Source: Firmicutes bacterium M10-2 (GTDB lineage Bacteria; Bacillota_I; Bacilli_A; Erysipelotrichales; Erysipelotrichaceae). From it: a stretch of DNA of 55,528 bases. Shown in pieces: positions 35,169-51,883 of the stretch (positions are counted from its first letter, which is position 1; every line of letters begins with the position of its first letter). Position numbers and translations under genes: made by a program. Where the stretch lies: positions 230,583-286,110 of the forward strand of contig KE159681.1 of NCBI GenBank assembly GCA_000403415.2, written 5' to 3'. The notes under the pieces are model-generated. The model was not told the origin of the DNA. It made no database searches and was given only the letters and a program-made list of their open reading frames with translations.

Positions 35169-35864
35169 ATGGCTAATAACAAAAACTCAAAAAAATTAAA
35201 CGAAACATTCGGACAATACGATGCATCTGACAACGTAAATATGACAATGTCCCAAAATAGCGAAGACGATAAACCGCAGCCAAAACATATCGATTTAAGC
35301 TTGTCAAATGACGGAATCGGAAACAACGATTCTCCGATCCAAATGCCTGACGATCAGACAACAGCGAAGCAAAATGCCTTTTCCGATCATGTTGTCAATT
35401 CTATGAATCATCACAAAGAAGCTCCGAATATCGATACGACCTATTCGATTTCTCCGGATAGCGAAGACGACAAGCCGCAGCCAAAACATATCGATTTAAG
35501 TTTGTCAAATGACGGAATCGGAAACAACGATTCTCCGGTTCAAAATGCGAACGATATCGTCACTCCTGAACAGCAACGTATTTCCGATGAAATTTTAGCC
35601 GAGGAGAAAAAAATCAATATCATGAACGAACAAGTAAAAGAAAATTTGGATACAATGCAGAAAAATGTCGAAAGCTACATTGACGAAGCAAAAAAGCAAT
35701 ATGAAGAAGAAGGCGGACTGAAAGGAATGGCTCAGGAAAAGATTGCCGATCTTAAAAAATCAATGGACACCGATCCGAAAGGTACTCTTTGCGATCTGGG
35801 TAAAAACGCTTTGATCGTTATCGGTGCTCTAACCGTAATTAAAAAATTATTGTTCAGAAAATAG
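35169..35864 (+). CDS. Hypothetical acidic protein with an internal repeat and C-terminal anchor
   Basis: A 231-residue protein. An Asn/Asp-rich N-terminal half carries two near-identical copies of a 26-residue block (starting SEDDKPQPKHIDLSLSNDG, about residues 31-56 and 98-123). A coiled-coil region follows (about 145-200), then one hydrophobic segment (NALIVIGALTVIKKLL) at the extreme C-terminus, as in tail-anchored proteins. No signal peptide. AAGGAGG precedes the ATG. The family is not recognised. A strong hairpin terminator follows at once. Confidence 0.75.
   Translation: MANNKNSKKLNETFGQYDASDNVNMTMSQNSEDDKPQPKHIDLSLSNDGIGNNDSPIQMPDDQTTAKQNAFSDHVVNSMNHHKEAPNIDTTYSISPDSEDDKPQPKHIDLSLSNDGIGNNDSPVQNANDIVTPEQQRISDEILAEEKKINIMNEQVKENLDTMQKNVESYIDEAKKQYEEEGGLKGMAQEKIADLKKSMDTDPKGTLCDLGKNALIVIGALTVIKKLLFRK
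35257..35336 (+). repeat. 80-bp direct repeat, copy 1
   Basis: Identical to 35458-35537 except for three bases, all synonymous in the encoded protein. Start-to-start spacing is 201 bases, a whole number of codons. Confidence 0.9.
35458..35537 (+). repeat. 80-bp direct repeat, copy 2
   Basis: Second copy of the 80-bp block at 35257-35336. The three synonymous differences show selection on the protein or a recent duplication. Confidence 0.9.
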
Positions 35865-35954: not shown

Positions 35955-36019
35955 ATTTTACAGGTTCTTGTTTCATTTATCTTCTTTCTGTCCTAAGATG
36001 CATGCTTGTTGACCCAAAA
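35955..36019 (-). promoter_or_regulatory. LytTR-type 21-bp-period element and promoter, copy 1
   Basis: On the minus strand a 32-bp element (36019-35988) contains TTTTGGGTCA and TCTTAGGACA offset by 21 bp (two helical turns), as for LytTR direct-repeat sites. After exactly 27 bases comes an extended -10 (TG then TAAAAT, 35960-35955). The element is 26/32 identical to 51853-51822, which has the same 27-base gap. The LytTR regulator gene lies beside it. Confidence 0.6.
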
Positions 36020-36120
36020 TGCAAAAAAACAAAAGGATTTCGCCTGTTTTTATATAAGTAAAAATTTATACCTTTCACACTTTTTTGATTTTTCTCTTTT
36101 CTTCTTCCTTGGCCATGAAT

Positions 36121-36157: not shown

Positions 36158-36871
36158 ATGGATTATGAAATCAATCTTTGCGAAGACGATCCGATTCAAA
36201 ATGAAAAGCTCGTCCAATGGATCGGTCACCGTTTTCCGCAAGCAAACGTACACGGATTCGTTGACGAAAAAGATTTACTTGCGCACATGCAAATCAAAAA
36301 GATTCCTTGCATTATCATCATGGATATCATGCTCAAAAACGATGTGAACGGCATCGAAACAGCCAAAGCCATCAAGGCGATTGATCCGTCGTCAATCCTT
36401 ATCTTTTTAAGTTCTTATTTGGAAAAAGCGTGCGATGTGTATGAAGTCGATCATTGCTATTTTGTTTACAAACCGCAAAAGGAATCTCGACTTGAGATTG
36501 CGATCCATAAAGCACTTTCAATGCTCAAAAATCGTCCGAAAGAAATTGTTGCGCATACCGGCACAACGACTGTTCGCATCGATCCGAATACTGTGCTTTA
36601 TTTAGAGCGAATCAAACGTTATACCCTCATTCATTGTCGTACGGAAATTATCAAGGTCAAGGAAGATCTCGATACGCTTTCGTCCTTTCTTCCCGACTCT
36701 TTTCATCGTTGCCACCGCTCGTTTTTCGTGAATTTTCGTTTCATTCGTTCATACATGGTTCACGATTTGAAAATGGAAGATGGTGCGCTGCTTTCCGTTT
36801 CCAGAAGGTATGTTCAATCCATCAAAACCTCCTTTCACAACTATCTTATCGATCCAAAGGAGGGAATTTGA
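36158..36871 (+). CDS. LytTR-family response regulator
   Basis: A 237-residue regulator of the AgrA/ComE class: receiver domain (acidic E9-D10-D11, phosphoacceptor D56 in IIIMDIMLKND, Lys in FVYKPQK) and a C-terminal LytTR DNA-binding domain (VLYLERIKRYTLIHCR, SFLPDSFHRCHRSFFVNFRFIRSY, SVSRRYVQSIK). LytTR proteins bind direct repeats about 21 bp apart, matching the elements at 35988 and 51822. The stop overlaps the kinase ATG by one base. Regulator-first order with a kinase and two sensor-like genes after it is unusual. Confidence 0.92.
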   Translation: MDYEINLCEDDPIQNEKLVQWIGHRFPQANVHGFVDEKDLLAHMQIKKIPCIIIMDIMLKNDVNGIETAKAIKAIDPSSILIFLSSYLEKACDVYEVDHCYFVYKPQKESRLEIAIHKALSMLKNRPKEIVAHTGTTTVRIDPNTVLYLERIKRYTLIHCRTEIIKVKEDLDTLSSFLPDSFHRCHRSFFVNFRFIRSYMVHDLKMEDGALLSVSRRYVQSIKTSFHNYLIDPKEGI

Positions 36872-37707
36872 TGAAAAAACGTTTTTCTTCGCCACGCGCC
36901 AACGTGGCGATGTATTTATTGTCGGAAGCCGCTTTGACCGTCTTGATCCCACTTGCGAACCAGACGATTCGAAACACCTTTGCTCCCGGTTGGGTATTGT
37001 GTGTGCTCGTTCTCTTTTGTGCTTCGGGCTTTTTTGCGATTCGTCTCATTCGCACTTTGCTTGACAAAATGCAGGAAGATGCCCGAAAAGAAGTGCTTCG
37101 CGCGCAAGCTGCCATTCAAAAAGAACATGTATTGGCAACGATGAAAGCGGAACAAGATATGGTGCGGCTGCAAAAAAAGCTGAAAGAGATGATGAAAGAT
37201 GCCCCGCAAGACGAGGCGTCCCGGCGGACAAAAATCGATGAACTGCTTCACGAAGAAGCGGACTCGTTGTTTGTGAATTATTGTCCGCATAAAATCGTAG
37301 ATGCTTTGCTTTATCATAAATCGCTCATCATGAAATCAAACAATATCGACTATTCGATTGTGGCGGCTGTACCGGCCAATCTCGATTTAGACGGATATGC
37401 AATCTTAAGTGTTTTGTCCAACTTGATTGATAATGCAATCGAAGCGGTTCTTGCCCACGATGGCGAGCGGATCATCGACATTCACTTGCATACGCGTGCA
37501 AACGTGCTTGTGTGTCAAGTAGAAAATACCGTTCCCCCACATACCTCGCTGATCAAAGGGCGTTCTACAAAAAAAGATAGCCAACAACATGGTCTTGGCC
37601 TTGCAATCATCGAACATACGTGCAAGATGCACCACGGTATGTTTTCTCATGAAATGCAAGGCAATCGCTGCCGTTGTACGGCTATGTTGTGCGAAAACAG
37701 CGCGTAA
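36871..37707 (+). CDS. GHKL-type kinase catalytic subunit with a degenerate H-box
   Basis: A 278-residue protein: two N-terminal membrane helices (about 12-30 and 41-62), a coiled coil (65-108), and an agr/com-type ATPase domain with YCPHKIVDALL (137-147), N-box SNLIDNAIEA (183-192) and G-box HGLGLAII (240-247). In this family the H-box (LRHDxxNHL) lies about 45-50 residues before the DALL segment. Here that place reads LQKKLKEMM (100-108), with Lys at the position of the phosphoacceptor His. It also has only two helices rather than six or seven. Both missing parts are found in the next two genes. The longer frame from 36634 is inside the regulator gene. Confidence 0.85.
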   Translation: MKKRFSSPRANVAMYLLSEAALTVLIPLANQTIRNTFAPGWVLCVLVLFCASGFFAIRLIRTLLDKMQEDARKEVLRAQAAIQKEHVLATMKAEQDMVRLQKKLKEMMKDAPQDEASRRTKIDELLHEEADSLFVNYCPHKIVDALLYHKSLIMKSNNIDYSIVAAVPANLDLDGYAILSVLSNLIDNAIEAVLAHDGERIIDIHLHTRANVLVCQVENTVPPHTSLIKGRSTKKDSQQHGLGLAIIEHTCKMHHGMFSHEMQGNRCRCTAMLCENSA

Positions 37708-37718
37708 AGGAGAAAAAA

Positions 37719-38507
37719 ATGGAACTTGGATTCTTGATTATTTTAGTGTATCAAAGTATCGTGCAGTCAGCTTTTTTTTCATTCTATTATCCCCTTGAGC
37801 ACAAAGTACGCAACTTCTTGTTTTATATGGGTTTGTTCATTTTGATGATTTATCCTCTTGATACACTCTTTCCGGTGACATGGGTACTGCAAAAAAACAT
37901 TTTCAACGTCGTGTTTCTTGGGGTAATGACGCGGATCGTATTTCGTTCTTTGAAAACGCCGACAATCATCATGGGGACCGTGCTATACGAAATCGGTCTT
38001 GTGCTTTCGGAAATCACCACACTCTTTATTTTGTATGTCGTTTTCAAAGATAGTCCCGATCCGGGTAGATTCAATGCCGACCACACCCATATGTACATCT
38101 TTGGTTCGCTGATGCTTACTATCGTATATTCGATTCTTCTTCAAGTCTTTCCTAGCCGGATCGCATTGAAGAAAAAGGAGTTCGTTTATTTGATCAGCTT
38201 ATTATTGAATATTGGCTTCACGGCGCTTTGCGGCGCATTTATCGTCGTACCGAAAGAGCACGTATTTTTTTCTCGTTCGTATGGTATCGCAATCACTATT
38301 CTTATAGGATTCAACATTTTGACGTTGCTTTCACTTCAACAATTCATTCGTCATGAAAGAGCGAGGCGTTCGTTTGAAGCACTGGAAGCGACATATCAAA
38401 ACGAGCTTGCCAATTACACGGTATCGCACCAAGATGACTTGGCGTGGCGTCGTTTGCGTCATGACTTGCTCAACTTTTGGGAAGCAACAAAGGAGGAGGA
38501 ATCATAA
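37719..38507 (+). CDS. Polytopic sensor with C-terminal H-box, copy 1
   Basis: A 262-residue protein with six or seven membrane helices (to about residue 208), a short coiled coil (FIRHERARRSFEALEATYQNEL), and at the very end WRRLRHDLLNFWEA, the agr/com-type H-box with the putative phosphoacceptor His248, only 14 residues from the stop. There is no second dimerisation helix and no ATPase domain. The layout is that of an AgrC/ComD sensor cut right after the H-box. AAAGGAG at 37706 sets the start at 37719; the kinase stop is 11 bases upstream. Confidence 0.85.
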   Translation: MELGFLIILVYQSIVQSAFFSFYYPLEHKVRNFLFYMGLFILMIYPLDTLFPVTWVLQKNIFNVVFLGVMTRIVFRSLKTPTIIMGTVLYEIGLVLSEITTLFILYVVFKDSPDPGRFNADHTHMYIFGSLMLTIVYSILLQVFPSRIALKKKEFVYLISLLLNIGFTALCGAFIVVPKEHVFFSRSYGIAITILIGFNILTLLSLQQFIRHERARRSFEALEATYQNELANYTVSHQDDLAWRRLRHDLLNFWEATKEEES

Positions 38508-39286
38508 TGCCTATTTGGTATATCGTAGCGCTGTTTTATCAATCGGCGATCCAATCGACTTTGTTTGTATTGTATTTGCGTTCGAAACGACCTTGGCCGC
38601 GTTTTTTTCTCTTGTGGTTCTTGTTCGTTTTTGTGATCTTTCCGTTTGACAATTTCATTGGCGATTACCACCTGTTTTTGAAAAACGTATTTAACTGCGT
38701 CTTTCTTGGCTTTGTTTGTCGGGGATTGTTTCCGGAAGAAACGAAAAGACGGATCGTATTGGCGGTGCTTTTATATGAAACATCGCTCGTGCTTTGCGAA
38801 ATTTTCGGTATTCCGTTGATGTATTTATTGACCCAAAAGAAGATCAATTGGCATGATTTTGATTCATTCCAAATGATAATGACTGGTGTTGCAAGCGGTT
38901 TGATGACGGTTTTCGTGTTTGGATTGCTTCGAGTTTTTTCGAGAACAATGACGGGAAATATGAAAATGTTGTCGTATTTAGGTTGTTTGCTCGTCAACAA
39001 TATTGTGCTTGTGCTATGCGTGTGTCAAATACTTGGATTTTATGAACCTTTCTTTTTCTCCCTTTCTTATCAACTTGTCGTATTAATTTTGTTTGGTTTG
39101 AATGGAGCAATGCTTTTTTCTTTGGCTCGTTTTGTCAAGCAGGAGCGGCAGCGTCAAAGTCTTGCGCTGTTAGAAGAAACGTATCACCAACAATTGCTTT
39201 TATATTTACAAAACGGACAACAGGAAGAAGGCTGGCGGCGGATTCGTCACGACTTGATCAACTTTCTTGATGAGCAATCCTTTTAA
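38507..39286 (+). CDS. Polytopic sensor with C-terminal H-box, copy 2
   Basis: A 259-residue paralogue of the preceding protein (shared YQS-[AI]-[VI]-QS start, L-KN-[VI]-FN-VFLG, and the C-terminal coiled coil). Again six or seven helices, then GWRRIRHDLINFLDEQSF, with His248 at exactly the same residue number and the stop 11 residues later. Its ATG overlaps the stop of copy 1 by one base (TAATG), with GGAGGAGG upstream. Divergence between the copies in the helices suggests different ligands; the conserved end suggests a shared kinase partner. Confidence 0.85.
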   Translation: MPIWYIVALFYQSAIQSTLFVLYLRSKRPWPRFFLLWFLFVFVIFPFDNFIGDYHLFLKNVFNCVFLGFVCRGLFPEETKRRIVLAVLLYETSLVLCEIFGIPLMYLLTQKKINWHDFDSFQMIMTGVASGLMTVFVFGLLRVFSRTMTGNMKMLSYLGCLLVNNIVLVLCVCQILGFYEPFFFSLSYQLVVLILFGLNGAMLFSLARFVKQERQRQSLALLEETYHQQLLLYLQNGQQEEGWRRIRHDLINFLDEQSF

Positions 39287-39390
39287 AAGAAGGCGTCGGC
39301 GCACAGGGTATAGAAAAGCCTTGGATGCGGATCCGAAGTTTTCGACATGACTTGTTTAATTTTTCAATAAGCAATGCGTTCCGTCAATGA
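39287..39390 (+). pseudogene. Remnant of a third sensor C-terminus
   Basis: In a frame different from copy 2, bases 39322-39390 read W-MRIRSFRHDLFNFSISNAFRQ-stop, matching WRRIRHDLINF of copy 2 with a two-residue insertion. No start codon or membrane part remains, so this is the tail of a deleted third copy, or the original end of a sensor overwritten by recombination. Confidence 0.5.
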
Positions 39391-39394
39391 ACTG

Positions 39395-39431
39395 AAAAAA
39401 ACGGAAGAGTTTGTCTGCTCTTCCGTTTTTT
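39395..39431. terminator. Bidirectional terminator
   Basis: AAAAAACGGAAGAG pairs perfectly with CTCTTCCGTTTTTT, loop TTTGTCTG. It closes the LytTR operon on plus and the lipoprotein gene on minus. Confidence 0.9.
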
Positions 39432-41601: not shown

Positions 41602-44600
41602 TTATCTTTTCTCTTTCCGTTTCTTGCTGACAATCCAGCCAAGTCCTACTACAGTCATCAATCCCGCGAAAAGCGAGTTCGACTTTTTCATTGCAAATCC
41701 CGTTTCTGGTGAACGCGTTGTAGAAACAGAATCCACTTTGACTACTTTTCTGTTTGCCAAATTGACAGTTTCCCCTTTAAATGAACTATCATCTTTAACG
41801 GATGGAGTAACAACCGGTTTATTCGCTTCATCTACTGGTGTCATTGGTTTGTTTTCCGAAGGTTTGTTTCCTGGATCCTCTGGCTTTGTAGATGGTTTCC
41901 CGGTTGGCTTGTCCGGCTTTTCACCCGGTTTATTATTGTCAACCGGCTTGTCAGGTTTTTCCGATGGATTGCTTGGCTTATCCGGTTGTTCATTTGGATT
42001 ATCTACTGGAGATACTGGTTTTATTGGTTGATCTGGTTCTATATATTTTGGAAGCTCTTCTTCATCTACAACCGAGAGTTTCCTAACCGATTCCAAATAC
42101 TCTTCTAAAGTCATTCCAAAACCACCTACAGCACTATTTAATATCTTGATTTGATTCCAATCATTCGTGGATGGAGGAATGATTTTTATGTTTTCTGATG
42201 TATAGATATTGCCTTTAATTGGACTATCACTAATGATTCCGTCTCTATTCCAATCAATATTTCTATCATTTTCATCCCAGAGCCAAATTATTGATCTATC
42301 TTTATCGTATTTTAAATTTAAAGTCATTTTTAATTTTTTCGGAACCATACCAAAATATATATTCTGCGCATCCTTTTCATAAAGTGAATCCTTATTCATT
42401 TCTGGAAGTTCATATTCTGAATAATTCAAATAATCTTTAAATGATACCTCTCCCGCAGCGTTTTTAGTCCTAAGCTGCCAATAAGCTTGATACGCATAAT
42501 TCATAACGCTTAAGTAATTCGGTTTATAATTCACATCATCTGTTCCCCCATGTCTTAGCCCAAGCGTATGACCTAATTCGTGCATTATCGTTCCAGCTAG
42601 CCACCGTACACAATCATCATTGCTCAAATCACCTAGCGCGTGCATCGCTACACTGAAAATTGCACCATTCAAATGTGCAAGTCCTGTTGTCCCTTTATCA
42701 TCTTTAAACTGGTCCAATAAGACACATTGACGAAATATTGGCATACGAATTTTATTTTCTTCATCCTCATAGATATCTTTTAAAATATCCGCCAAAGCCT
42801 CATTCTTTAATGGAAAACTTTCTGGTTTATAATCTAGCTCTTTCGCTAAAGAACCGTATTCTGACCATAATTTCCCGGTTACAAAATCTTTTGATTCAGG
42901 TCCTGCATCAATATGAAGATTAAATCCATGCTCTTTGAATACCTTTGCCACCATATCGCAAGCATCATACAATATTTTTTTTGTAATCGTCGTCTGCGTT
43001 GCCGTATCGCCTATTACCCCTTTTACCCAGTTTATTTGCACAAAAATATCAGGTGTTTTCGGATCGGTTTTAATTAGTTTTCCATTATTTGATACTTTGA
43101 TTCCGTTTATTTCTGTCGCTGTTGGCAATCCATCTCCATCATCAATAGAAGAAACAGAATTTAAAAATATTCTTACTTGTTTCTTCTGCGCAGCAGTTTT
43201 GATGGTAAGTACCATGTCCATTTGTGCGGAGTATGACAAAGTATTTGGATCTAAAGTAAGCGGAACAACAACAGTTACTCTATTTTTCTCGTCAACTTTA
43301 AAAGTGGCTTTTCCAATAGTCGGAAATACATGGTCGGAAGTAGATGCTAAATGATGTCTTTCCATCGTCAAGTCCATACTTTTTACAAACTCTCGCAATT
43401 CATCATTCGAAAAACTTCCCCCATCAAACGACATCACACAATTCACTGCCAGTTGTTTTGCGGAAGGGTCCAAGTTCATTGGAAAAAATAAGTGATCATT
43501 ATATTCATCTGCCCACATTACATTTCGAGATTCTGATCCTGAAAATGAAATAGATGGCTCGACAGTAACTTGAAAATCTACCTTTTGTCCATCGTCGGCA
43601 ATTCCATGAATCATCGTGATGCCCGGCTTATTTCCCTCAATAAATAATGAAAAATCAACTGATGATTCTTTCTTATTTACTGTTCCTAACATGATGTTCT
43701 TAATTTTAGCAATCTCCTCATTATCAGAAATCCATTTAATATTTTTTGCAATTTCTAATACATCCTTTCCTTGATTGTTTCTATAACAGCCAGAAAGAAT
43801 TTCCATTTTCCCTGCTTCAATTTCTCTTCCTGTTTTTGAAACATCTAGACTCGAAATTGGACCTTCTGCTTCCCCAGGGAAACTTTCAATAGGACGCCCC
43901 AGCTCTTCTAATGTCGGCATTCCGTTCTCCAATAAAATCTTGTTTACCCTGGCATAAATATCATAGAGAGGAAGATCGACACCATCACAACGATATTTTT
44001 CCCCATACTTGCTTTTTTTAAATCTTTTAACATTTTCCAAACTATATAAATTTTGCATGTAATTTGGATAAGGGATTTCATCAGTATAATTGTCTGAACC
44101 ACTACTAGCTAAAACTCTGCCCGAACCATAACCTGGGAAATAGATTGCTTTTTTTCCTTCAGGAAATTGGACATCTCCTAAATTATAGAGATCACTGATG
44201 TAAGGGGTACGATTCACACTATAATATGTGGTAGGCCCTCCTAAAACGCCAGCAATAGAAATTTCTTCGAATCTAAGGTCGCTAATTTTGGGAAGAATTA
44301 TATTTATATTTCCAATGTTTATTAGATTTACTAATTTGTCTGAATCATCTCCTCCAAAGAGCGCAATTACACCTGCAGCTTCTATCTCACCCCATTTAAA
44401 AGCATCGGAGGAGAATTGACGAGAGTCAGCAATTGTTATATCACCAGCATTAATACAGTTTTCTGCACTACGTACATAACCAACAATACCACCTACTGAT
44501 GGCCATCCTCTCCACCCAGGATTTTGTGTTTTTGCGGTTTGAATATACAATAAACCTACATTTGTACATTTTTCTACTATTTCAGCTCGAGCGACTATAC

Positions 44601-45957
44601 CGCCAACACTCGGATTTTCATCAATAAATTTAGCTTCAACATTTCCGTAATTAATTGAATTATTCGTACCATATAACCATCCAGCTAGTCCACCAATATA
44701 AACATCTCTGAAATGATCATGGATAGTTCTGTCATGGTCTCCATAAACAGAAATATTAGCGCTATTTACGGAATTTTCGATAGTAGTATCCAGACCATAA
44801 CCAATTATCCCACCGATAAAATGATTTCTATAATTTATTATTGCTTCGTCTATATCAGAATATAGTTTTTCCTCTGAAAAGGATAAATTTATATTTCCTT
44901 TCACATCTACACAGTTAACAGCATGTCCTGTTTCATAATTAGCACTATAAATATACCCTACCAATCCACCAATGCATATATCTATCACAGATTTAGATAA
45001 ATTATTCTCGTACTTATATTTAGTCGGTTTATCTAAATCTAGATTTATCGAAACATGTAACTTTAGATTTTCAAATTTAGAAGTGCGTCCACCTGATGCA
45101 AATAAACCATAATAAGGTTTGTTAGGGTTATATTCAGTAATGGATAGCCCTGTAATTGAATGATTATTTCCATTAAAAGTACCATAAAAAGATACATCAT
45201 CTTCTTCATCAGCTTTCCATCCAATCGGAATGAAACTATCAATATGAGATAAATCAATGTCATTAACCAAAATATAATGACTGCTCATGTTTTCTCTGAT
45301 GAAATCCAAATCATCTGCTATTGCAATTTGATATGGATCTTCTACTGTTCCTGATCCTTTAACATTCCATTCTTTTACAACTTTTGAACTTATGACAGCA
45401 CTGGAAATCTGATATGGATTTTCCTCACTACCGTCCCCAAATTGAAAGAGGCTATTATTCTGTGGTTTCACTTCTTCTACCACTTTCATTTCCTTTGGTT
45501 GCGTCTCTTTGTTTTCTTCTGAAGCGAATGCTTTCATTTCTGAATTTTCTTTTGGAAAAGTAGTGACTTCACTATTTAAAATTTCTTTCTTTGGCTCAAC
45601 TTCTGTTTCTGAATCTGGTGCTTTGAAATCATTATTTAGGTTTTCTTTTTCCTGGTTTTCAATATTATAATCTACCGATTCACCCGCAAATAAGTCTTCT
45701 TCATCCGATATTTTTTCAGATTCGTTGAATTGATTTACATTGGGATCTTCTTCACCAACGCTTTCCTCTTCATAAAATGTAGTATCGGTTATCCCAGCAA
45801 ATTCTGTATTTTCCGTTTGCTGGACCACATCTTGTTCTACTGAATTTTGCTCCACTTCTTCGGCAAGAATTGCCATACCCGGCAATGTTACGGCTGTTGC
45901 CAATGCAACTGCTGCCAAATGTTGGGGTTTCACACTTTTATTCTCATTCGATTTCAT
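41602..45957 (-). CDS. Wall-anchored GLUG-repeat protein with a metzincin-type metalloprotease site
   Basis: A 1451-residue secreted protein. In order: signal peptide (to about 33), acidic Ser/Glu-rich region (35-170), GSGTVEDPYQIA-type block and GLUG-like repeats (about 190-650, e.g. FIGGIIGYGLDTTIENSVNSA), a bacterial beta region, then HELGHTLGLRH (1126-1136), a full HExxHxxGxxH zinc site with a Met-turn SVMNY (Met1152), a Pro/Lys-rich wall-spanning region, and the sorting signal SPETG plus hydrophobic helix and KKRKEKR tail. It is probably a surface protease; the substrate is unknown. ATG 45957 follows GGAAAGGA. Confidence 0.88.
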   Translation of the reverse strand: MKSNENKSVKPQHLAAVALATAVTLPGMAILAEEVEQNSVEQDVVQQTENTEFAGITDTTFYEEESVGEEDPNVNQFNESEKISDEEDLFAGESVDYNIENQEKENLNNDFKAPDSETEVEPKKEILNSEVTTFPKENSEMKAFASEENKETQPKEMKVVEEVKPQNNSLFQFGDGSEENPYQISSAVISSKVVKEWNVKGSGTVEDPYQIAIADDLDFIRENMSSHYILVNDIDLSHIDSFIPIGWKADEEDDVSFYGTFNGNNHSITGLSITEYNPNKPYYGLFASGGRTSKFENLKLHVSINLDLDKPTKYKYENNLSKSVIDICIGGLVGYIYSANYETGHAVNCVDVKGNINLSFSEEKLYSDIDEAIINYRNHFIGGIIGYGLDTTIENSVNSANISVYGDHDRTIHDHFRDVYIGGLAGWLYGTNNSINYGNVEAKFIDENPSVGGIVARAEIVEKCTNVGLLYIQTAKTQNPGWRGWPSVGGIVGYVRSAENCINAGDITIADSRQFSSDAFKWGEIEAAGVIALFGGDDSDKLVNLINIGNINIILPKISDLRFEEISIAGVLGGPTTYYSVNRTPYISDLYNLGDVQFPEGKKAIYFPGYGSGRVLASSGSDNYTDEIPYPNYMQNLYSLENVKRFKKSKYGEKYRCDGVDLPLYDIYARVNKILLENGMPTLEELGRPIESFPGEAEGPISSLDVSKTGREIEAGKMEILSGCYRNNQGKDVLEIAKNIKWISDNEEIAKIKNIMLGTVNKKESSVDFSLFIEGNKPGITMIHGIADDGQKVDFQVTVEPSISFSGSESRNVMWADEYNDHLFFPMNLDPSAKQLAVNCVMSFDGGSFSNDELREFVKSMDLTMERHHLASTSDHVFPTIGKATFKVDEKNRVTVVVPLTLDPNTLSYSAQMDMVLTIKTAAQKKQVRIFLNSVSSIDDGDGLPTATEINGIKVSNNGKLIKTDPKTPDIFVQINWVKGVIGDTATQTTITKKILYDACDMVAKVFKEHGFNLHIDAGPESKDFVTGKLWSEYGSLAKELDYKPESFPLKNEALADILKDIYEDEENKIRMPIFRQCVLLDQFKDDKGTTGLAHLNGAIFSVAMHALGDLSNDDCVRWLAGTIMHELGHTLGLRHGGTDDVNYKPNYLSVMNYAYQAYWQLRTKNAAGEVSFKDYLNYSEYELPEMNKDSLYEKDAQNIYFGMVPKKLKMTLNLKYDKDRSIIWLWDENDRNIDWNRDGIISDSPIKGNIYTSENIKIIPPSTNDWNQIKILNSAVGGFGMTLEEYLESVRKLSVVDEEELPKYIEPDQPIKPVSPVDNPNEQPDKPSNPSEKPDKPVDNNKPGEKPDKPTGKPSTKPEDPGNKPSENKPMTPVDEANKPVVTPSVKDDSSFKGETVNLANRKVVKVDSVSTTRSPETGFAMKKSNSLFAGLMTVVGLGWIVSKKRKEKR

Positions 45958-45985
45958 ACTCAATCCTTTCCATTCTTCTTAAAAC

Positions 45986-48599: not shown

Positions 48600-51569
48600 C
48601 TAAAACTTTCGTTTCTTTCCTACTAGGAATCCAAGACCAATCAAGCTCATCATGCCTGCAAACATCGAACTTGTCTTACGAGCTGCAATACCTGTATTCG
48701 GGGAACGCTTAGTATCCGCTTCTTTTTGAGTCTCTTTTGTAGATTCCATTTTTACCGGAATGACTCTTGTTTCACTTTCTTTATTAACACTTGGTTTGGA
48801 AGCCGGTTTATTCTCTTCATCAACCGGTGTTGTTGGTGTTTCTGTCGGCTTGTTGTCGTCCGTCGGATCATCCGGTGTTTCCGTTGGCTTGTTGTCATCC
48901 GTTGGATCATCCGGTGTTTCCGTTGGTTTATTGTCATCCGTTGGATCATCCGGTGTTTCCGTTGGCTTGTTGTCATCCGTTGTTGATTGACTTGCTACGA
49001 TAAACCAAGAGAATGAATTTGTTTCAAACTCATAGTATTTACCGTCAATAATATTGAATTGAAGCTCTACCGCATCCGAATCTTTTTGTTCCTTATGGAA
49101 CAGCCGAACTTCTTTACCGATAAATTCCGTTGGAATCGGAATTCGAACAGTAAATTTACCGGTTCTTGATACTTCTATTCCTTCACCATTTTCAAAATGA
49201 ATATCGTAACCAATCGTTTGATAATCAGAAGATAGACCAAAATTATTGTCTGCTTCTACTTCGTCGATTACGATTTCCAATCCTGTTAGATCTTCGTTGG
49301 ATTCTGCTTTTACTTGATATCCATCTTGAGAGAATGTCGCTTCTGTTTTGATCGGAGTTTCTGGTTTTGGATTTTTCTTCTTCAATTCCGCTGCTACGAA
49401 GATAATATCTAAATTTTCTTCTTCAATCATAATTCCTTCTAATCGATACCAACCCATATTTTCTTCCCAAACAACTTCATTGGTTGCGGCATTGATAATT
49501 TTTCCATGTAGAACCCGCATATTGAATTCTTCCGGAAAAGCAAACTCGCCATAGTAATCTCCCGGCCTTTGCACTTTGTTTCCATCTTTGTCGGCAAGAT
49601 AAAGATGATAGCCATATGTATCGTATTGATCGGAATATCCAAAATTATCATCAGATTCTACTTCTTCTAAAACGGCATGAATATCACGGAAACCGGCTGG
49701 AGATTGGGCAAAAACATAGTAGTTTTCACCCTCAAATACTTTTTTCAATTCTTCTTTATTTGTTGGCTGTTCAATCGTTTCCCCTGATTCTAAGATCTTG
49801 ATATCCGGAAATTGAGTTTGAACCAAAGAACTGAGTTCTTCTCTTTTTACATTCGCACCGTTTTCTAGATTAGAGTCAATGAATTTATCAACAATCTTTT
49901 CATTGATTTTAAAATCATTTACACTATAGCAATTTTTAATCGATACATTCCGATCCTTAATTGACGGATCATTATAAGAATAGCTGGTGGTTGCATTTGT
50001 GATCCGATAAATCGGATATTTCTCTAAATCCAAATTCGTATAATTTCCATTACTATCAATCCATTTAAAATTAAGTGTATCGCCTAAATTGTAGCCATTT
50101 TCAATACCGCTATATTCTCCGTTAATTTCAAGTCCGCCGATCATTCCGATCAAACCATTAACGTATATAAGATAATGCGGATCAGAGGTATAAGATGAAG
50201 AGACAACATCAATTTTTCCAAAATTAACAACATTGGATGTTTTTGAAGGAAAAGAAATCCCATCATTATAGTCGCTCGTTTCTGAATAAAAAGTAGTATG
50301 TTGAAGTTGTCCTAATATGCTACCAATTGCTAAAAATGAATATACATCTTCTAATTCCGAATTATTTAACCGAATGTTTCCATAATTAACGAGATTTTCA
50401 GAATTCCCCCAAATAAAACCCGCAAGTCCGCCGATCTCGCAATGATTCGAATTCTCTACAGTAATATCTCCATAATTGGTACAATCTTTTAAAACCATAT
50501 TGGCATGATCTTTATTAGCGAATTTTCCAATATGTCCCACAATACCTCCAACAGTAGTATTTGTTCCCGCCTTGTCATCATAGCTTACTCTAATATTTGC
50601 ATAATTTTTACAATTTTTTATTAAAGTTTTAGGAATAGAATAACCTGCAATGCCCCCTGTATATCCTACGTAGTACGTCCTAGCCGATACTTTCGTTAAC
50701 TGATTTACAATATTTCCGCTAACTGTGCAATTCTCTATCGTTCCTTGATCCCAGCCTGTTAAACCAGATGCAAATACTCCGCCATAAATAGGGCCAGCCG
50801 GCCGTCTAGGAGTTGGTGAAGTCAATTTTTGAATGTTATGGGCATCGATTGCTACATCCACATCCAATAATTGAATGTTCTTTAAAATCCCTTCATTTTT
50901 CGCAAACAATCCATAGAATTGTTCATAAATCGGTTCTGTCTTTTCTCTGATCATTAAATTGGAAATCGCAAAATTTGCTCCATCAAAGACACCTTTGAAA
51001 GATTGGGTATTGGAAGTTTCTGTTTCCATTCCAATCGGGGTCCAATTAATCCCTTTCAAATCAATATGTGCGGTTTGAATATAATAAGCATTCAAATCAT
51101 ATCGAATAGAATCCAATTCTGTTGCACTCGATACTTGATAGGGATCTTCTTCCGTTCCATTTCCATATTGGAATAAAGTGGTTCCTTGTTTTGAATTCGA
51201 CTCAACCAAAGTAATCCCTTCATTATTCTCATTTTCTTCACTTACTGTTGAATCCTCGACTTCATTCGATTCCTCGGAAATTATTTCAAATTCAGATTGT
51301 TTAAATTCCACAGTACTACTCAAAGGTTGATCATTCTTTTGTGTAATGTTTTCTTCTTTATTGTCTATCTCATCAACAGCAGATAAATTCACTTCCTCAG
51401 TTTCCGTTTGTTCAGGCAATACGGGCTGTTCAGACAATTCACTCGAATTCTGTGTTTCTAAGGACGTTTCCGAAGGAACTTCACCCTCTTCTGCTGCTAA
51501 AACGTTTGCTGTGACCGGTGCCAACAACATCGTTGCCGCCACTGCACCGTAAAGATGTGTTTTTTTCAT
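48600..51569 (-). CDS. Wall-anchored GLUG-repeat surface protein, 989 residues
   Basis: Same plan and almost the same signal peptide (MKKTHLYGAVAATMLLAPV) as the 46051 protein: acidic region, LFQYGNGTEEDPYQVSSATE block, GLUG-like repeats (GYTGGIAGYSIPKTL, GGIVGHIGKFANK, GGLAGFIWGN), two tandem copies of a 110-120-residue domain (a diverged one with VESDDNFGYSDQYDTYGY, then the conserved one with VEADNNFGLSSDYQTIGY), a TDDNKPTETPDDP repeat stalk, and SPNTG plus helix and KKRKF. The ATG at 51569 has AAGGAG upstream. Its promoter carries the LytTR-type element. Confidence 0.88.
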   Translation of the reverse strand: MKKTHLYGAVAATMLLAPVTANVLAAEEGEVPSETSLETQNSSELSEQPVLPEQTETEEVNLSAVDEIDNKEENITQKNDQPLSSTVEFKQSEFEIISEESNEVEDSTVSEENENNEGITLVESNSKQGTTLFQYGNGTEEDPYQVSSATELDSIRYDLNAYYIQTAHIDLKGINWTPIGMETETSNTQSFKGVFDGANFAISNLMIREKTEPIYEQFYGLFAKNEGILKNIQLLDVDVAIDAHNIQKLTSPTPRRPAGPIYGGVFASGLTGWDQGTIENCTVSGNIVNQLTKVSARTYYVGYTGGIAGYSIPKTLIKNCKNYANIRVSYDDKAGTNTTVGGIVGHIGKFANKDHANMVLKDCTNYGDITVENSNHCEIGGLAGFIWGNSENLVNYGNIRLNNSELEDVYSFLAIGSILGQLQHTTFYSETSDYNDGISFPSKTSNVVNFGKIDVVSSSYTSDPHYLIYVNGLIGMIGGLEINGEYSGIENGYNLGDTLNFKWIDSNGNYTNLDLEKYPIYRITNATTSYSYNDPSIKDRNVSIKNCYSVNDFKINEKIVDKFIDSNLENGANVKREELSSLVQTQFPDIKILESGETIEQPTNKEELKKVFEGENYYVFAQSPAGFRDIHAVLEEVESDDNFGYSDQYDTYGYHLYLADKDGNKVQRPGDYYGEFAFPEEFNMRVLHGKIINAATNEVVWEENMGWYRLEGIMIEEENLDIIFVAAELKKKNPKPETPIKTEATFSQDGYQVKAESNEDLTGLEIVIDEVEADNNFGLSSDYQTIGYDIHFENGEGIEVSRTGKFTVRIPIPTEFIGKEVRLFHKEQKDSDAVELQFNIIDGKYYEFETNSFSWFIVASQSTTDDNKPTETPDDPTDDNKPTETPDDPTDDNKPTETPDDPTDDNKPTETPTTPVDEENKPASKPSVNKESETRVIPVKMESTKETQKEADTKRSPNTGIAARKTSSMFAGMMSLIGLGFLVGKKRKF
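48838..48982 (-). repeat. 39-bp tandem repeat, about 3.7 units
   Basis: Units of 39 bases encode TDDNKPTETPDDP. Copies 2, 3 and 4 differ by one or two bases; the first differs by about five. It forms the wall-spanning stalk, and copy number could vary by slippage. Confidence 0.9.
48989..49361 (-). repeat. 373-bp dispersed repeat, copy 2 (surface-protein domain)
   Basis: Partner of 46407-46779. Confidence 0.9.
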
Positions 51570-51788
51570 ACTCAATTCTCCTTGATTTCCTTTCACGACA
51601 AGCGATTTTTCATGATTAAAAGTTGCTTTCGTATTCTTTCTTTCATCCCGATCCTGTTTTTTTCCTTCTGAGTTCGTTGCTAAAAATGGAAAACCACTTG
51701 CCAAATACACCTTGAACACGATTCCTATTCCCAATCCATATTTTTTTATTTTTATTATCGTGCGTGATGTATTTATATTATGTTTTTT

Positions 51789-51853
51789 ATTATATTCATA
51801 TCATTTTCAAATACATCCCTCCTGTCCCGAGATGCACGATTCTCGACCCAAAA
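51789..51853 (-). promoter_or_regulatory. LytTR-type 21-bp-period element and promoter, copy 2
   Basis: On the minus strand TTTTGGGTCG and TCTCGGGACA are offset by 21 bp in a 32-bp element (51853-51822). It is followed after 27 bases by a perfect TATAAT (51794-51789). The same spacing is found at 35955-36019. The transcript would start near 51782 and have a leader of about 210 bases before the surface-protein ATG at 51569. Confidence 0.6.
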
Positions 51854-51883
51854 AACACAAAATGTAATAATTTTCAGTTCAAA

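Follow-up and report, generated by a model that had tools for sequence, protein, structure and literature searches.

An operon of Firmicutes bacterium M10-2, a gut bacterium, appears to encode an obligately split AgrC-type histidine kinase, in which a catalytic subunit devoid of the phosphoacceptor histidine would phosphorylate alternative membrane sensors in trans; I put the probability of this reading at roughly 0.77, the phosphorylation itself being inferred. The operon lies at 36158-39286 of the window (the whole stretch of DNA that was analysed, 55,528 nucleotides) and, judging from its translations, comprises a LytTR response regulator, a GHKL catalytic protein and two membrane sensors (Table 1). 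Each of the four genes has a GGAG-type ribosome site ahead of it, and successive genes are joined by TGATG, 11 bases and TAATG, exactly as given in a preliminary description of this DNA, whose claim that the four genes form one unit is borne out. This arrangement occurs in 18 genomes, which is more than chance would give. That description had overlooked the relic of a third, decayed H-box tail (RHDLFNF; ...WMRIRSFRHDLFNF...) between sensor 2 and the terminator-like hairpin, for which the shuffle figure in Table 1 is nominal, as the pattern was picked after the family had been seen. Just 5' of the operon, a gene at 35169-35864 (+) encodes a 231-aa protein that contains the internal repeat SEDDKPQPKHIDLSLSNDGIGNNDSP twice and has no Pfam match.

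Table 1. Features of the split-kinase operon and its putative target, in window coordinates.
Feature	Position	Strand	Evidence and remarks
LytTR response regulator, 237 aa	36158..36871	+	Receiver D10/D11/D56, LytTR DNA-binding domain; Pfam Response_reg 8e-10, LytTR 1.6e-15
Catalytic subunit, 278 aa	36871..37707	+	2 TM helices, coiled coil, DHp-like hairpin with Lys102 for the phospho-His, intact GHKL ATPase; Pfam HATPase_c_5 (PF14501) E=9e-17, model pLDDT 82
Sensor subunit 1, 262 aa	37719..38507	+	7-helix membrane domain, C-terminal WRRLRHDLLNF, His248; translation, alignment, model pLDDT 85
Sensor subunit 2, 259 aa	38507..39286	+	Membrane domain, C-terminal WRRIRHDLINF, His248; translation, alignment
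Remnant of a third sensor tail (...KPWMRIRSFRHDLFNFSISNAFRQ-stop), not preceded by an intact gene	~39318..39391 (approximate)	+	Pattern in 2/200,000 shuffles of the intergenic stretch
Terminator-like hairpin closing the operon	39396..39431	+	Consensus match only
Two direct half-sites, period 21 (CTGTCCTAAGATGCA-N6-TTGACCCAAAATGCA), putative LytTR regulator site for autoregulation	35988..36023	+	
Second copy, putative regulator site	51822..51857	+	Lies before the surface-protein gene on the minus strand and runs in the opposite direction to it
Surface protein, putative target	48600..51734	-	Likely start near 51569; C-terminal LPXTG-like NTG anchor

The catalytic protein had been described as having an intact ATPase domain, a lysine in place of the H-box histidine and only two membrane helices, and all three points held. 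The ATPase domain is recognised by Pfam (Table 1), and a profile alignment with solved AgrC (6e52) set RHDYVN on Q101-K102-K103-L104-K105-E106, so that the H, D and N of the AgrC H-box correspond to Lys102, Lys103 and Glu106 and all three are lost. AlphaFold2 gave two N-terminal membrane-spanning helices: in the model, a helix at 8-35 is followed by a long helix at 39-110, which takes in the second transmembrane segment, the coiled coil and the false H-box, and then by a second DHp-like helix at 115-133 and the ATPase fold. Whether ranked by sequence or by predicted fold, the closest solved counterparts of the catalytic protein include the ATPase domain of Staphylococcus aureus AgrC and the AgrC kinase module, and comparing the model with solved structures returned 4bxi with Z 17.0 over 135 residues and the kinase module (6e52) with Z 16.6 over 228 residues at an rmsd of 6.5. 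Neither an RHDxxN H-box nor a polytopic sensor occurs in the same chain as the ATPase, the 7-helix sensor being encoded by a separate gene.

Both sensors carry their phosphoacceptor-type histidine at residue 248, as had been stated, and the chains do end 14 (sensor 1) and 11 (sensor 2) residues later, although these residues are to be counted from the histidine and not, as the preliminary description had it, from the end of the motif. The six to seven helices expected there became seven in the AlphaFold2 model of sensor 1, where the last of them extends into the cytoplasm and, after a break, is followed by a separate H-box helix at 240-261. The sensor thus carries the first DHp helix only, the second being missing. 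Sensors 1 and 2 are 33% identical to each other. An alignment of 30 sensors, whose identity to sensor 1 is 13-33%, shows conservation of the H-box and one glutamate alone: no sequence varies at H248 or D249, and at least 90% agree at R247, N252 and E98. Because these residues persist amid such low identity, selection across genera is taken to preserve the phosphoacceptor motif, with the receptor part diverging. The 28 sensor reading frames that were examined stop 9 to 39 residues past the histidine. No Pfam match above cut-off was found in the sensors, in NCBIfam their resemblance to AgrC was weak and stayed below the cut-off (E=2e-4), and comparison of the sensor fold with solved structures gave no convincing match, so the link between the sensor and known receptors rests on sequence profiles.

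Profile searches across the order (about 311-316 genomes) found both halves co-occurring in the same 18 genomes, which belong to 11 genera and two families, at E<=1e-43 for both the H-less catalytic subunit and the short sensor. Split sensors were set apart by a wide gap in match strength, reaching E<=1e-43 in frames of at most 325 aa, against E>=1e-17 for full-length kinases of 402-506 aa; the exceptions among sensors at weaker E were two contig-end pieces and one short fragment. A single catalytic gene is accompanied by one to four sensors, 33 in total over the 18 genomes if the two contig-end pieces in G082 are treated as one gene, and the gene orders include RR-K-S, RR-K-S-S, RR-K-S-S-S, RR-K-S-S-S-S, RR-S-K-S-S and RR-S-K. 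The relatives include Erysipelotrichaceae bacterium RD49 (L108, the contig of G003) and Longicatena caecimuris (L109, the contig of G043), which are of the same family as the window genome. In one genome of the window's own genus (G089), a sensor gene (L044:16695-17573) lies ~10.5 kb from the regulator-kinase pair and adjoins a gene for a 2316-aa likely surface protein. Sister sensors mostly cluster within their own lineage, from which it follows that sensor sets expanded repeatedly, with the catalytic gene remaining single while sensors multiplied within lineages. Regulators, kinases and sensors showed dN/dS values of 0.05-0.26 in the cases where two near relatives allow the estimate, which points to purifying selection on both partners where it could be measured; in G051, a stop codon interrupts the catalytic gene. 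The arrangement was thus recovered in related genomes, as the preliminary description had proposed to search for, and a recent deletion from a full-length kinase, which would have undone its reading, is excluded by the retention of the split in 18 genomes of 11 genera at these dN/dS values.

The tails of sensors sharing a kinase were also compared, and there was no general excess of tail likeness within operons over the similarity of the membrane domains. Matched co-evolution of sensor tails with the shared kinase was consequently not shown, except in G001 and in one pair in G051. In G001 (L050:4339-5890, -), a sharply bounded tail of 120 nucleotides is identical at 116 positions in a pair of sensors from the same operon whose membrane parts differ, which suggests gene conversion of the H-box tail.

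Phosphorylation of some other histidine in the catalytic protein would overturn the split reading, and candidates are available: the window's protein has 13 histidines, among them His86 in the predicted coiled coil, which is histidine in 12 of 23 catalytic subunits. However, the remaining 11 have Y, R, Q, N or L at this position, the acidic residue that usually follows a phosphohistidine is absent, and no histidine in the DHp-like part is conserved across the 23 aligned subunits, the sole invariant one being His240 of the ATPase HGLG motif (22 of the 22 with letters there). A catalytic subunit that autophosphorylates on its own histidine, with short sensors that merely modulate it, would moreover leave the conservation of the sensor H-box unexplained, and I consider it very unlikely. 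It is also conceivable that the sensor H-box is only a phosphatase or regulator-docking motif and that another kinase of the cell phosphorylates the regulator, since HDxxN also acts in dephosphorylation (PMC3591291) and at least one full-length relative is present in this genome (C1:607695). This proposal remains unlikely, as it fails to account for the His-less but intact GHKL partner that accompanies the sensors in 18 of 18 genomes.

A relic tail does exist after sensor 2, and the short sensors might be decaying or decoy remnants of tandemly duplicated kinases, but such an origin is hard to reconcile with 33 sensors in 18 genomes without a full-length sister seen in the operon, with purifying selection in the tested sensor pairs, and with an H-box that is their most conserved region; I regard it as barely tenable. 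The split kinase hence remains the preferred reading. The proposal of the preliminary description is supported, as both conditions that it had named as refuting turned out in its favour. The anatomy of an H-less catalytic subunit and H-box sensors, its conservation, the co-occurrence of the halves in 18 genomes and their descent from full-length kinases are shown, whereas the chemistry remains inferred.

As to origin, the profiles speak for common descent with intact kinases: full-length kinases of the family and class match the sensor profile at about residues 5-260 and the catalytic profile at about 150-424, and outside the order, a class-level search found sensor relatives only inside full-length kinases. 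The two halves overlap by ~100 residues, which comprise the last two transmembrane helices, the coiled coil and the first DHp helix, and therefore a single cut is ruled out while duplication and reciprocal loss fits. By this comparison, the probable origin of the split system is a full-length AgrC-type kinase that was duplicated and whose copies then lost reciprocal parts; I take this ancestor to have looked like the full-length kinases matching both halves. One catalytic subunit (L091) retains IKHDVIE, with KHD exactly at the position of the lost H-box, and this is read as a vestige of the ancestral H-box. A Clostridium metagenome-assembled genome (L122:3409-6640) encodes a 439-aa H-less kinase that has kept its own sensor and is flanked by two 292-aa H-box sensors; it reads LKQYYFSQ where its sisters have MKHDFANH, and shares 24% identity with the flanking sensors in its sensor part. 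From its sequence this is interpreted as an independent split showing an evolutionary intermediate, of which there is a single instance, as the arrangement was not found in 149 relatives. Other split designs occur in the second family of the order (L088:11089-12686, L092, L094, L096, L097 and L099), with an H-box of the N/R/K-H-D type and sensors that end ~30-40 residues past it and stand up to four in tandem. I lean, without great firmness, towards the wider view that this is a naturally evolved obligate heteromeric membrane kinase, in which duplication and reciprocal loss turned a homodimer into an H-less catalytic subunit with a growing set of interchangeable sensors.

Among known systems, AgrC/HPK10-type GHKL kinases are the closest, since they provide the nearest solved fold and sequence relatives of the catalytic part (4bxi, 6e52) and share the RHDxxN H-box, the polytopic sensor and the LytTR regulator; in AgrC, however, sensor, phosphohistidine and ATPase reside in one chain, whereas the break here falls within the DHp domain and several sensors go with one ATPase subunit. 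An agr quorum-sensing locus was considered and rejected, as AgrB (Pfam PF04647) had no match over cut-off in the whole genome (best 16.4 bits against 23). Phosphoacceptor and ATPase are known to reside on different proteins in CheA3/CheA4 of Rhodobacter sphaeroides, neither of which autophosphorylates alone (PMC3591291), and in Hik36/Hik43 (PMC7656254), and the window operon meets the same description of a histidine and an ATPase on separate proteins. Split CheA differs in its Hpt-like P1 domain, its chemotaxis cluster and the lack of a family of alternative membrane sensors; the CheA domains (Hpt-like P1, P5) are absent here, with Pfam above cut-off giving only HATPase domains in the catalytic protein. 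Spo0B combines an H-box and a degenerate GHKL domain in one soluble chain, while the window's sensors are membrane proteins without GHKL. RetS/GacS (7n0e) resemble the present case in that different sensor kinases associate via their DHp domains, but those partners are separate interacting histidine kinases and here each chain is without one catalytic essential. The laboratory test of cis against trans phosphorylation pairs a His mutant with an ATP-site mutant in a heterodimer that is active only if phosphorylation occurs in trans (PMC12148442). Such heterodimers are engineered mutants of one gene, whereas the window operon consists of natural, conserved and divergent genes, and by analogy the locus looks like the cis/trans experiment fixed by evolution. 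A SMART survey had predicted HisKA proteins without ATPase domains. Split kinases as such are already known; an AgrC-type split with several sensors per kinase was not found in a literature search that mostly did not cover subscription papers. I know of no such plug-in receptor design for two-component systems.

The window's regulator gene has two 15-bp half-sites upstream of it, spaced with a period of 21 as is expected of LytTR regulators, and L044, L045, L048 and L053 carry this element ahead of their regulator as well. A first, stricter site pattern had zero matches in the window. A refined pattern, drawn from known sites including the window's own, matched the 2.4-Mb genome twice and no more, its reversed control not at all, and a profile from which the window's own sites had been left out scored 30.8 at the regulator gene and 28.1 at the second copy, the next best in the window being 16.2. 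The two genome copies connect the operon with a cluster of surface-protein genes 16 kb away, where the second copy precedes the gene for the putative target (Table 1), and in L049 a similar site lies ahead of a lipoprotein-like gene. The tandem element probably serves the LytTR regulator, and autoregulation together with surface-protein control is inferred, the site being known from sequence only. No explanation was found for the opposite orientation of the element at the surface-protein gene, and this counts against reading it as a regulator site. The putative target is adjoined by a similar anchored protein (41602-45963, -), a 1453-aa surface protein with an LPXTG-like anchor, the motif HELGHTLGLRH and a weak, below-cut-off Reprolysin_3 match.

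The catalytic subunit retains two membrane helices, the H-less DHp-like hairpin and the ATPase, and each sensor retains the receptor in the membrane and DHp helix 1, which bears the phosphoacceptor histidine. In the mechanism proposed here, the two may associate via their membrane-proximal helices and coiled coils like the halves of an AgrC dimer. Stoichiometry is likewise a matter of inference, and it and the bundle geometry of the pairing are unresolved because the sensor is without DHp helix 2. Upon a signal, the ATPase would phosphorylate His248 of the sensor in trans, and the phosphoryl group would pass to the LytTR regulator, which may then act on its own operon and on the nearby surface-protein gene. 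With several sensors per catalytic subunit, one regulator could read several inputs. That the two sensors read different signals is inferred as well; their 33% identity and the separate sensor expansions fit this idea without proving it.

Family libraries miss these sensors, for which there is no Pfam match above cut-off, and kinases of this kind would appear incomplete. The split parts could serve as modular biosensor components. The symmetry of histidine kinase homodimers, phosphorylation in cis or in trans and the crossing of signals between chains are long-standing questions that have mostly been probed with engineered heterodimers. Here, nature supplies the separated parts of a kinase, conserved in 11 genera and divided inside the DHp domain, and the split system offers both a clean test of trans-phosphorylation and a model of how receptors can grow in number without multiplying kinases.
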